Source of the DNA: Gammaproteobacteria bacterium
Lineage (GTDB): Bacteria > Pseudomonadota > Gammaproteobacteria > GRL18
Direction: 5' to 3'
DNA length: 37,881 nt
Assembly: GCA_015488755.1 (NCBI GenBank)
Contig: WFNB01000057.1
Location: 1 to 37,881 of the forward strand
In this document: in pieces, positions 4,578-34,094 of the stretch
How positions within the stretch are numbered: position 1 is the stretch's first letter
How the letters are laid out: every line of letters begins with the position of its first letter
Translations under genes and position numbers: made by a program
The notes under the pieces: generated by a model
What the model saw: only the letters and a program-made list of their open reading frames with translations
The model's database searches: none
What the model was told of the DNA's origin: nothing

Positions 4578-4780
4578 AAAAAAATACCAAGTGCTTAATA
4601 GCCACTCATTCGTAGATACTTAAGGATAACTCTGTGTTTACGGAGGAAGTTTTTGCCACATGGATGTGGCAATAAAGCCTCCAAGGATGGATTTACGGCG
4701 TCTTGCGTAGTAAATACAGAGTTATCCTGCCTCAGACATGCTTAAGTACCTACCTATTGAATAGCCACTTGGTATTTTTT
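4578..4780. mobile_element. Palindromic MITE-like element, copy 1
   Basis: A non-coding palindromic unit of about 203 bp. Its outer ends are inverted copies of AAAAAATACCAAGTG (4579-4593 and, inverted, 4766-4780). Inside are nested stems: ACTCTGTGTTTAC opposite GTAAATACAGAGT, GGAGG (4642-4646) opposite CCTCC (4678-4682), and a perfect central hairpin TTGCCACATGGATGTGGCAA (4653-4672). A GGATGGATTTACGGCG block follows the hairpin. The same core recurs near 9.5 kb and, with changed but still pairing stems, near 33.2 kb. No transposase is encoded, so it is a non-autonomous or REP-like repeat. It lies between the DUF853 gene and a convergent small gene and could act as a bidirectional terminator. 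Confidence 0.8.
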
Positions 4781-9184: not shown

Positions 9185-9428
9185 TAAAACCTCAATCAGA
9201 TGTTCCGAGTCATCCCCTTATTCCCCATATCGGCCTAGTATAAAAAAACTGAAGGATATTTGGCCATTAAGCTCGATGTAGGATTTATATTACAAGATTA
9301 GCAGAAAACATAAAAGAGTCAACAAATTTATCTTGACTTAGAACAAAAAGTATGAATGAAATATTCACTTGCAAAGCAAACTTAAGGTTATTTTTATTTC
9401 GGCTAAAGCAAATAGAATATAAATAACA
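9185..9428. other. Intergenic region upstream of the taxis pair
   Basis: This stretch holds no gene I can support. An open frame on the minus strand at 9285-9515 runs into the repeat element and lacks a ribosome site or recognisable protein character. It should hold the promoter of the PAS/MCP pair, but I could not assign convincing boxes. Confidence 0.4.
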
Positions 9429-9613
9429 TAACCTGAGTTCTGGATAACTGAATAAGTAACGTATTGAGTAGCCACTTAAGGATAATTCTGTGTTTACGGA
9501 GGAAGTTTTTGCCACATGGATGTGGCAATAAAGCCTCCATGGATGGATTTACGGCGTCTGTGTAGTAAACACAGAGTTTTCCTGCCTCAGAAGTGCTTAA
9601 GTACCTACCTATG
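9429..9613. mobile_element. Palindromic MITE-like element, copy 2 (hybrid ends)
   Basis: The core matches copy 1 almost base for base: ggataa-ctctgtgtttacgg-type arm, GGAGG/CCTCC stem, the identical hairpin TTGCCACATGGATGTGGCAA at 9509-9528, the GGATGGATTTACGGCG block and CTTAAGTACCTACCTAT at the right end (9597-9613). The left end differs: TAACCTGAGTTCTGGATAA (9429-9447) is identical to the inverted right end of copy 3 near 33.3 kb. The copy is therefore a hybrid of two end types, or two nested insertions. Its right end runs into the RND permease gene and supplies that gene's stop codon (CTA at 9609-9611 on the plus strand). Confidence 0.75.
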
Positions 9614-21104: not shown

Positions 21105-21123
21105 TAATCTAAGTTCTGGATAA
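21105..21123. repeat. Solo end of the MITE-like element
   Basis: TAATCTAAGTTCTGGATAA differs at two positions from the 19-bp end TAACCTGAGTTCTGGATAA seen at 9429-9447 and, inverted, at 33289-33307. No core or second end is nearby, so it looks like a decayed remnant. Confidence 0.45.
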
Positions 21124-21137
21124 GCTTTTGACCAAGC

Positions 21138-21177
21138 CTCATAGCTCTAGGTGCCAACTCATACCTCTAGGTGCCAA
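21138..21177. repeat. 20-bp tandem duplication
   Basis: Two adjacent 20-bp units, CTCATAGCTCTAGGTGCCAA and CTCATACCTCTAGGTGCCAA, differing at one base. They lie between the convergent SPFH and DUF1415 genes. Confidence 0.7.
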
Positions 21178-31997: not shown

Positions 31998-33077
31998 ATG
32001 AAAAATGATTTTTTTAATCACGATGACATCAGCGCCTACGATGCTCAATATGAAGCACAAAAAATAGCCTTTGCACCCATTATCTTTCAAGTTGCTCGTG
32101 TTATGCGGGATAAGGGCTTATTAGAGCTATTACACACCAATAGGAAAACGGGTTTAACGTTAGAACAAATTAATCAGGCCAGTCAAGTAAACTCTTATGG
32201 TATCAGTTTATTATTGGAGAGTAGTCTCAGTGCTAATATTGTTAAATGCATTGATGATCATTACTTTTTAAGCAAAATTGGCTTTTATCTACTTAAAGAT
32301 ACCATGACTCAGATTAATATGAATTATAATCATTATGTCAATTATCAGGCTTTATTCCATCTTGAAGAAAGTATCGAACAGAAAAAACCCATTGGTTTGA
32401 AAAATTTTGGTTCTTGGCAAACAATTTATCCCGCATTAACCTCGTTACCTAAAAAAGTCAGAGACAGTTGGTTTAAGTTTGATCATTACTATTCAGATTC
32501 TGCCTTTGCTGATGTCTCAAATCTATTAGCAACAACACAGATTAAAACAATCCTTGATGTCGGGGGTAATACAGGCAAGTTTTCTCTTTTTATTGCGCAA
32601 AATAACCCGTCCATTCAGTTAACCTTGGTCGATTTGGCTGAACAAATCCATGTTGCTCAAGAAAATATCGCTGAGCACCACTTAGAGCAAAGAATAACTA
32701 CTTATATTGCCGATGTATTAGCCACCGATCAAACGCTGCCTAAAGACTATGATATGATTTGGATGAGCCAATTTTTAGACTGTTTTAGTAAAAAAGATAT
32801 TATTAGTCTATTAAAAAAAGTCACTCAGTCTATGACAAATAACACCGAACTTTGGATAATGGAACCCTTATGGGATAGACAAAAGCATGAAACCTCTGCT
32901 TTTTGCATTATCAATACTTCACCCTATTTTACCACAATGGCCAATGGCAAAAGCAAAATGTATCGCTCCGATGATCTCCTTAATTGCATTACTCAGGCAG
33001 GTTTAAAAGACATTGAAATCATTGATAATCTTGGACTTTGCCAGTCTATTATTCGTTGTAAATTAGCTCTTGAATAA
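31998..33077 (+). CDS. SAM-dependent O-methyltransferase, family 2 type
   Basis: A 359-residue methyltransferase. A winged-helix dimerisation-like N-terminus (~1-110) is followed by a Rossmann domain with SAM motif DVGGNTGKFS (187-196), acidic motif LVDLAEQ and post-motif MIWMSQFLDCF. The layout resembles plant/bacterial small-molecule O-methyltransferases (CrtF/hydroxyneurosporene or acetylserotonin type). In this context it probably methylates the aryl head hydroxyl or another polyene group; substrate is inference. It starts 45 nt after the dehydratase gene and is followed by a repeat element, not directly by the next cluster gene. Confidence 0.87.
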   Translation: MKNDFFNHDDISAYDAQYEAQKIAFAPIIFQVARVMRDKGLLELLHTNRKTGLTLEQINQASQVNSYGISLLLESSLSANIVKCIDDHYFLSKIGFYLLKDTMTQINMNYNHYVNYQALFHLEESIEQKKPIGLKNFGSWQTIYPALTSLPKKVRDSWFKFDHYYSDSAFADVSNLLATTQIKTILDVGGNTGKFSLFIAQNNPSIQLTLVDLAEQIHVAQENIAEHHLEQRITTYIADVLATDQTLPKDYDMIWMSQFLDCFSKKDIISLLKKVTQSMTNNTELWIMEPLWDRQKHETSAFCIINTSPYFTTMANGKSKMYRSDDLLNCITQAGLKDIEIIDNLGLCQSIIRCKLALE

Positions 33078-33121
33078 CAAAAAATTGGTACCAATGATTT
33101 TAACGTACTTTTTATGTTATT

Positions 33122-33307
33122 TAACCTGAACTCTGGATAAGATAATCTTGAAATAAATTCAGAGTGTTGATTAGCCTGTGTTTGTGGAAGCAGTCTCTTT
33201 GGCATGGATGCCAAAGTGAAGCTTACAAGGATGCATTTACAGCGGCTTCTGTAACAAATACAGGCTAATCAATACGTTACTAGTTCAGTTATCCAGAACT
33301 CAGGTTA
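33122..33307. mobile_element. Palindromic MITE-like element, copy 3
   Basis: A 186-bp palindromic unit with 19-bp terminal inverted repeats: TAACCTGAACTCTGGATAA (33122-33140) and, inverted, TAACCTGAGTTCTGGATAA (33307-33289). Inside, TTAGCCTGT pairs with ACAGGCTAA and GAAGC with GCTTC, and the centre is the perfect hairpin TTTGGCATGGATGCCAAA (33198-33215). It shares the CATGGATG loop and AAGGATG-ATTTAC-GCG block with copies 1 and 2, but its stem bases differ in a compensated way. It fills most of the 297-nt gap between the methyltransferase and ketoreductase genes. Confidence 0.8.
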
Positions 33308-33374
33308 TTTAAAACCATTCATGCCAATTTTTTTGGCTGTGGGCACTTCTAATTAAACACACATAGACAATAAA

Positions 33375-34094
33375 ATGAAAACAGCATTAGTAACAGGTGG
33401 TAGTGGTGATATTGGTCAGGCAATCTGCCTTAGACTGGCCAAAGAAGGGCATCACGTCATTGTGCATAGCAATACCAATATAGAAAAAGCCAATAGCCTA
33501 GTGGCAACGATTATACAATCAGGTGGCTCTGCCCAAAGCATCTGCTTTGATATTACCAACCATCAGCAAAGCACACAACACATCAGCCAACTCTTAAATC
33601 AGAATCCAATCCAAATATTAGTACACAATGCCGGTATTCATGACGATGCTCCTATGGCTGGAATGAGTAAAGAGCAATGGTCACATGTCATTGATGTTAG
33701 CTTAAATGGCTTTTTTAATGTCACCCAACCACTCTTATTGGCCATGATGAAACCCCGTTGGGGACGTATTATTGCCATAGGCTCTATTGCCGGAGTGATG
33801 GGCAATCGGGGTCAGGCCAATTATGCAGCAGCTAAATCAGGCTTACATGGTGCGTGTAAATCACTATCACATGAGATAGCATCACGAGGAATTACAGTGA
33901 ATGTAATTGCCCCAGGTATTATTGATACCCAAATGACTCAGAATACATTCCCTAAAACTCTTATTGATAAATTAGTCCCCGCAAAACGAGCAGGCAAGGT
34001 AGATGAAGTGGCTGCATTGACCCATTTTTTATCCTCTGATGAGGCCGCTTATATTACCGGACAAGTCATATCCATCAATGGTGGAATGTCATGA
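33375..34094 (+). CDS. apeQ: 3-oxoacyl-ACP reductase (FabG/ApeQ-like)
   Basis: A 239-residue short-chain dehydrogenase/reductase reducing the beta-keto group in each extension cycle with NADPH. Motifs: TGGSGDIGQAI (7-17), NAG at 85-87, N111, S137 in GSIAG, and Y150-x3-K154 in YAAAKSG. This matches FabG-type enzymes, including ApeQ. The glycosyltransferase gene overlaps its stop by ATGA. Repeat copy 3 separates it from the upstream cluster genes, so it may depend on readthrough of that hairpin or on a promoter in the gap. Confidence 0.93.
   Translation: MKTALVTGGSGDIGQAICLRLAKEGHHVIVHSNTNIEKANSLVATIIQSGGSAQSICFDITNHQQSTQHISQLLNQNPIQILVHNAGIHDDAPMAGMSKEQWSHVIDVSLNGFFNVTQPLLLAMMKPRWGRIIAIGSIAGVMGNRGQANYAAAKSGLHGACKSLSHEIASRGITVNVIAPGIIDTQMTQNTFPKTLIDKLVPAKRAGKVDEVAALTHFLSSDEAAYITGQVISINGGMS

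Follow-up and report, generated by a model that had tools for sequence, protein, structure and literature searches.

On balance, the palindrome that separates an O-methyltransferase-type gene from a ketoreductase gene in the window (the whole stretch of 37,881 nt analysed, from the gammaproteobacterial contig WFNB01000057.1) is best read from its sequence as one carrier of a mobile, TwoAYGGAY-like and putatively CsrA-binding RNA module that travels on different MITE backbones. A non-autonomous transposable palindrome (family A) sits nested in an older repeat and, in the mechanism we propose, brings with it a conserved payload, a long stem predicted to open into a junction with two short hairpins, whose C-A-N-G-G-A-n-G loops lie 23 nt apart in the window copy. 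Where the + strand is transcribed, as would be the case for the operon mRNA, a single CsrA dimer is predicted to clasp the core.

Nested insertion of a family A element

The palindrome at 33122-33307 takes up most of the 297 nt (33078-33374) that separate the upstream open reading frame, which ends at 33077, from the downstream one, which starts at 33375. On the 5' side of the gap, Pfam matches identify two ketosynthase-type proteins and an O-methyltransferase-type protein, and on the 3' side a ketoreductase and a family 2 glycosyltransferase, which fits the downstream genes named in the first-pass annotation; "polyene" as the name of the cluster is a label given there. The same annotation described a MITE-like palindrome inserted inside the operon, and the ends of the element, its duplication, its copies and two relatives without it all bear out an insertion of this kind into a row of co-directional genes. 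The element, a full family A copy with the ends ACCTG...CAGGT, and its surroundings are made up as follows.

31998 to 33077, + strand: upstream gene, O-methyltransferase type (Pfam PF00891, PF21212)
33067 to 33123, + strand: left half of repeat C, which supplies the last codons and the stop of the methyltransferase reading frame
33118 to 33123, no strand: target site duplication TATTTA, left
33124 to 33305, + strand: member of MITE family A, bounded by ACCTGAACTCTGGATAA / TTATCCAGAACTCAGGT, which stay sharp in an alignment with 39 further copies
33164 to 33198, + strand: 5' arm of the long inner stem (inverted repeat and fold)
33197 to 33216, + strand: hairpin 1, CTTTGGC-AUGGAU-GCCAAAG, with the CsrA-consensus site CATGGATG at 33203-33210
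33224 to 33235, + strand: hairpin 2, UAC-AAGGAU-GCA, with the CsrA-consensus site CAAGGATG at 33226-33233
33241 to 33275, + strand: 3' arm of the long inner stem (inverted repeat and fold)
33306 to 33311, no strand: target site duplication TATTTA, right
33306 to 33352, + strand: right half of repeat C (joined empty site and aligned copies)
33375 to 34094, + strand: downstream gene, ketoreductase/SDR type (Pfam PF00106)

The genome contains at least 40 near-full family A copies, the window copy included (40 of 97 candidates scored), which align with sharp ends and unrelated flanks, one of them being cut at its right end. The terminal inverted repeats have arms of 24 nt that are 83% complementary (33117-33140 / 33289-33312). 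An exact 4-nt direct duplication was found in 31 of the 39 copies with both flanks, against 4.9 when flanks were re-paired; it is part of a target that mostly reads TANNTA, and TATTTA in the window. None of 75 examined copies of families A and B (40 listed A copies, 34 of the 40 listed B copies and the copy at 9468, with 6 of the 75 at contig edges) lies wholly within an open reading frame of at least 80 aa. The search for a parent transposase covered 7 proteins beside lone family A ends (part of such ends), none of which is a transposase. A sequence resembling a lone family A end (TAATCTAAGTTCTGGATAAG) also occurs in the window at 21105-21124, beside a tandem 20-nt repeat (21138-21177). Some family A members (L038, L039, L041, L042, L043 and L025:2575-2787) form a subfamily in which the core contains 27-30 additional nt (CGCCCGAAGGAAGTACTCTTGGGGTG-like) directly ahead of its CGGCG.

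Repeat C is a palindromic repeat of about 95 nt (CTCTTGAATAACAAAAAATTGG ... CCAATTTTTTTGGCTGTGGGCACTTCTAA) that, with the MITE inside it, spans about 33067-33352 and is also found at L311-L318; the end of the upstream reading frame, CTCTTGAATAA, belongs to it. The joined flanks of the element (94 nt) recur almost in full at no fewer than 12 further sites of the genome, with matches of 85-98% (40 of 55 candidates scored). Empty sites are thus available both as uninterrupted repeat C copies in the same genome and as two relatives without the insertion. The MITE entered the loop of the older, small palindromic repeat C, and the insertion is a nested one.

The methyltransferase is present in 4 of the 40 genomes searched, its own included, which leaves three relatives for comparison. 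In two of them, both of the same genus (L297 and L298) and with both genes on one contig, the ketoreductase adjoins the methyltransferase; only 17 and 25 nt separate the two protein matches, and the element is absent. In the third (L296), the 1.3 kb downstream of the methyltransferase hold neither ketoreductase nor element, and its gene order therefore differs. As judged from these sequences, the insertion is lineage-specific and hence not an old device of the pathway.

Structure, loops and distribution of the common core

According to the first-pass annotation, the palindrome is the third copy of one repeat. This holds for the core, which is common to three copies in the window; however, the other two belong to another MITE family, B, with different ends.

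4606 to 4757, + strand: member of MITE family B that has this core, with CANGGANG at 4659 and 4682
9468 to 9612, + strand: another family B member, with CANGGANG at 9515 and 9538, abutting a family A end at 9428-9473

At 9428-9612, where the family A end abuts a family B element with a degenerate left end, the arrangement looks like an A/B chimera or a nested insertion. In the genome, family B is present as at least 40 near-full copies (40 scored out of 77 candidates), which brings families A and B together to at least 80 elements. It ends near TCATACGTAGGTACTTAAG and is flanked by an 8-bp duplication, exact in 23 of 34 cases and with at least 7 of 8 bases in 30 of 34 (0.99 on re-pairing). Since A and B differ in their ends and in duplication length, they probably use different transposases. 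Their centres are nevertheless homologous and consist of a stem, an ATGGAT-loop hairpin, an A-N-GGATG..ATTTACGGCG block and a stem. In the hairpin stems, compensatory changes set A (TTTGGC/GCCAAA) apart from B (TTGCCAC/GTGGCAA).

The earlier suggestion that the element could fold into a long hairpin agrees with a predicted energy of -77 kcal/mol for the + strand, a value equalled by none of 200 shuffles (mean -42.2, z -7.98); the opposite strand is nearly as stable, at -70.1 kcal/mol (z -8.87). Hairpin 2 of the window copy has one broken stem pair (A.C), found in 1 of 40 family A copies. Copies within one genome can share a core of about 60 nt and have outer stems that differ from copy to copy and yet remain paired over about 15-28 bp (G309, G305 and G239; by eye).

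How widely the core is distributed was assessed by scanning contigs with CAAGGATGNATTTACNGCG, which gave at least 110 stretches with 111 matches, 87 of which pass a flank test. The remaining 24 were set aside (16 chance-like by look, 6 near a contig edge, and two, L066 and L080, that are core-like but fail the flank pattern), and removal of 8 duplicates left 79 non-redundant loci. Hosts among the listed matches that pass include Marinobacter, Catenovulum, Oceanisphaera, Yersinia, Halomonas/Vreelandella, Stenotrophomonas, Lysobacter and methanotrophs. With R1, a covariance model made from 62 sequences, the core is detected in 77 of 369 genomes drawn from the class, where 10 candidates were scored per genome, so that copy numbers are lower bounds. 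In a draw from the phylum the core was found in 29 of 398 genomes, all 29 of the same class, a count that gives no out-of-class rate, since the share of this draw outside the class is not given. The 109-nt core has no match in a plasmid collection.

Conservation of the fold was measured on two alignments. The first, A1 (62 sequences, unfitted), retains 60 of the 79 non-redundant loci, namely those with enough flank and an upstream A.GGA. RNAalifold predicts 31 pairs in it, 28 of which changed on both sides; this number of compensated pairs shows no excess over shuffles (28 vs 27.4; 253 of 500). Counted by cell, however, 84.7% are paired against 55.1% in shuffles (0 of 500) and at most 44.5% with partners slid, 666 cells changed on both sides against 236 (0 of 500), and the covariation score is 0.734 against 0.203 (0 of 500). 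The second, A2, has 63 distinct full rows from 71 hits at 69 loci. It was fitted to the model, and its 97.5% of pairing cells and 30 of 32 pairs changed on both sides (25.9 in shuffles) are to be read with that in mind. The folded strand is not identified by comparing G.U with A.C on A1 (20 to 14, p 0.50); the same comparison on A2 gives 21 to 5 (p 0.005) and was set aside because A2 is fitted.

Since A1 required the upstream A.GGA, loop conservation is quoted from hairpins located by stem alone and from the class draw. A search by stem alone places hairpin 1 at 77 of the 79 non-redundant loci. GGA stands in its loop in 64 of these 77; for shuffled hairpins the figure is 134 of 1513, and for hairpins immediately upstream 3 of 69. 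Because hairpin 2 was fixed by the scan pattern, it was judged on the class draw (63 distinct full rows, 29 genomes). Among the model matches of this draw, A-N-G-G-A is present in loop 1 in 63 of 63 rows and in loop 2 in 62 of 63, a constancy of GGA that is partly selected because R1 was trained on A.GGA sequences; the freedom of N is not selected in this way. N is G37 T21 A5 in loop 1 and G36 A13 T12 C2 in loop 2, and the base after GGA varies too. For loop 1, the flanking C and the flanking G are each present in all 63 rows, and for loop 2 each in 62 of 63, so that both loops read C-A-N-G-G-A-n-G with N free. The consensus cited for RsmE in the available part of PMC6692469 is (A/U)CANGGANG(U/A); the core loops match this published CsrA/RsmE consensus and vary where it allows. 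In the window, pairs of CANGGANG at most 40 nt apart on one strand occur in the three repeat copies only, each 23 nt apart: 3 on the + strand and 0 on the - strand, with 0.06 expected per strand.

Explanations for the conserved core

Between co-directional neighbours in the genome of origin, the GGA strand is sense in 19 copies and antisense in 19 (38 copies), and in other genomes it is sense in 29 and antisense in 24 (from a set of 107 loci, with 18 at edges and 15 inside a reading frame of at least 90 aa). Since copies are as often antisense as sense to their neighbours, regulation of host genes is an unlikely reason for conservation of the core and was rejected as its general cause. Convergent and divergent gaps harbour family A in a ratio of 15 to 4 and family B in a ratio of 6 to 6. 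Single-copy substitutions, a depletion of which would be a sign of selection on single copies, are not rarer in the whole core (p 0.60 for A, 0.73 for B) and not depleted in hairpin 2 (p 0.11 and 0.25); in hairpin 1 they are depleted in A (p 0.005) and not significantly in B (p 0.11). ANGGA has been lost from hairpin 2 in 2 of 40 copies of family A and in 6 of 35 of family B. Moreover, elements of 75-84 nt exist that have family A ends and no core (L299, L300 and probably L304, which has 2 mismatches in one end), flanked by direct repeats as seen by eye. Random orientation, the absence of core-wide depletion, the ANGGA losses and the coreless elements together indicate that the core is probably kept by the elements themselves rather than by adjoining host genes.

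What the elements gain from it could in principle lie in the DNA. The core would then be a single-stranded hairpin signal for transposition or replication, read by a transposase or a host protein, and its GGA loops would have nothing to do with CsrA. Mobility of the copies and their random orientation relative to genes suit such a signal, and a hairpin in single-stranded DNA equally predicts conserved pairing and loops that differ between strands. However, families A and B, which differ in their ends and in the length of their duplications and so probably depend on different transposases, keep the same core, and the coreless elements with family A ends and adjacent direct repeats seem to do without it. 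The variation in both loops, moreover, falls mainly at the N of CANGGANG. We therefore regard a DNA-level signal as unlikely, though it keeps some weight.

The first-pass annotation had proposed that the element serves the operon as an attenuator, as a protector of an mRNA end or as an internal promoter. Its sense position within a co-directional row and its very stable fold would be in keeping with such a device. Nevertheless, two relatives with a readable gene pair lack it, family A copies stand in either orientation beside other genes, and scans of 33000-33450 for promoters and terminators stay at or below chance: the single promoter-like site lies outside the element (1 vs 1.7 in shuffles), which speaks against an internal promoter, and terminator-like sites, i.e., a GC-rich stem followed by a T run, number 0 (0.1 in shuffles), which speaks against an attenuator. 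An operon-specific function of this kind is thus quite improbable. Least probable of all is a purely selfish MITE whose arm pairing is kept by template-switch correction of quasi-palindromes and whose loops look conserved only because the copies are young: outer stems that differ within one genome and stay complementary (by eye), and the 86-94% identity to the window copy of family A copies without the extra insert, would agree with it, but the loops are alike across the class while stem positions changed many times, which needs a constraint on loop sequence.

A CsrA-binding module, in comparison, would account for the loops, and CsrA binding may be why different MITE backbones keep the core. 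Core RNAs would act as dispersed CsrA decoys or as CsrA-sensitive segments. For the operon in the window, a post-transcriptional effect is possible, since two hairpins with the CsrA consensus would lie in its mRNA some 140-170 nt ahead of the ketoreductase start; a CsrA dimer at this distance could change stability or polarity, or merely titrate CsrA. More tentatively, and with appreciable doubt, the core may define a class-wide mobile family of CsrA-binding RNAs, the GGA strand of which is unmodelled in Rfam so far as tested, and which moves between MITE backbones. Where a genome gathers scores of such elements, as the genome of origin does with its 80 or more of families A and B, their transcripts might then form a distributed CsrA sponge and place neighbouring operons under the influence of CsrA, possibly replacing dedicated antagonists of the CsrB/RsmZ type.

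The genome of origin encodes one csrA of standard sequence (E 3.3e-24). In the class draw, csrA is present in 72 of 77 core-bearing genomes against 241 of 292 others (p 0.019), and among complete, clean genomes in 63 of 64 against 217 of 250 (p 0.006); 5 of the 77 core-bearing genomes have no csrA match, one of them being 98% complete. This association is confounded by genome reduction and phylogeny and lends weak support, since reduced genomes may lack both csrA and the core. Searches of the genome of origin for dedicated antagonists with the CsrB and RsmZ models gave no hit with RF00166 and none above cut-off with RF00018. This is weak evidence, since both models also give signals below cut-off in control genomes and are lineage-bound.

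CsrA is a global post-transcriptional regulator, and a small set of dedicated sRNAs is regarded as its antagonists. If the reading as a mobile CsrA-binding module is true, paired CsrA sites ride transposable palindromes in about one fifth of the sampled class genomes, including the long-known YPAL of Yersinia, and a single transposition step could both alter the CsrA-binding capacity of a cell and affect further operons. What is conserved in several small mobile repeats would also acquire a testable function.

Relation to described RNAs and repeats

At the gathering threshold, Rfam has no match in the window. The best Rfam match of the window element is TwoAYGGAY (RF01731, clan CL00106), with 39.5 bits and E 4.5e-5 in a search of 321 bases, below the curated cut-off of 43 bits. 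Like TwoAYGGAY, the element has two A-N-GGA-loop hairpins on a common long stem, the loops of TwoAYGGAY being A-Y-GGA-Y. RF01731 finds 0 of 15 named core loci at its cut-off and, up to E 0.01, none in 17 core loci, two family A copies among them; in the genome of origin it has no match (7 candidates scored). Filing the element under TwoAYGGAY was therefore rejected, on the score below 43 bits and the absence of matches at other core loci and family A copies. TwoAYGGAY was listed in 2010 in a table of PMC2864571 and was proposed as a CsrA-binding RNA in PMC4333381; the excerpts of the literature that deal with it contain no link to mobile repeats.

The core is present by eye in YPAL/RU-2 of Yersinia (168 nt), as an AAGGAT-loop hairpin followed by GAGCCTACATGGATGTATTTACGGCG (PMC2759123 Table 1b). 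RU-2 is called MITE-like in the available part of PMC2759123, and the ends of the sequence printed there differ by eye from those of families A and B. YPAL duplications of 3-26 bp are given in the accessible portion of PMC2229807. The word CsrA is absent from the texts of PMC2229807 and PMC2759123, and a literature search with most subscription papers outside its reach found no paper joining CsrA with such repeats. A Yersinia core (L085) passes the cut-off of Ysr224 (RF02770) with 123.9 bits, while the window element matches this model weakly (21.3 bits). Ysr224 describes the other strand of the Yersinia repeat, the one without GGA loops, and the strand chosen for RF02770 may deserve review at L085:465-571.

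The CsrB and RsmX-Y-Z decoys are dedicated genes. With these RNAs the core shares repeated GGA hairpins, which in the decoys titrate CsrA (PMC4383904, as excerpted). With the Correia and ERIC MITEs, as named in the available part of PMC2229807, the element shares terminal inverted repeats, target duplications and tens of copies; unlike in these, its structured core is common to MITEs with other ends. RF01731 itself has matches in 23 of the 369 class-draw genomes (at most 7 scored each; L163-L192). They include repeated palindromes that have two GGA loops but another core and may make up a second mobile superfamily in which the loops are arranged alike.
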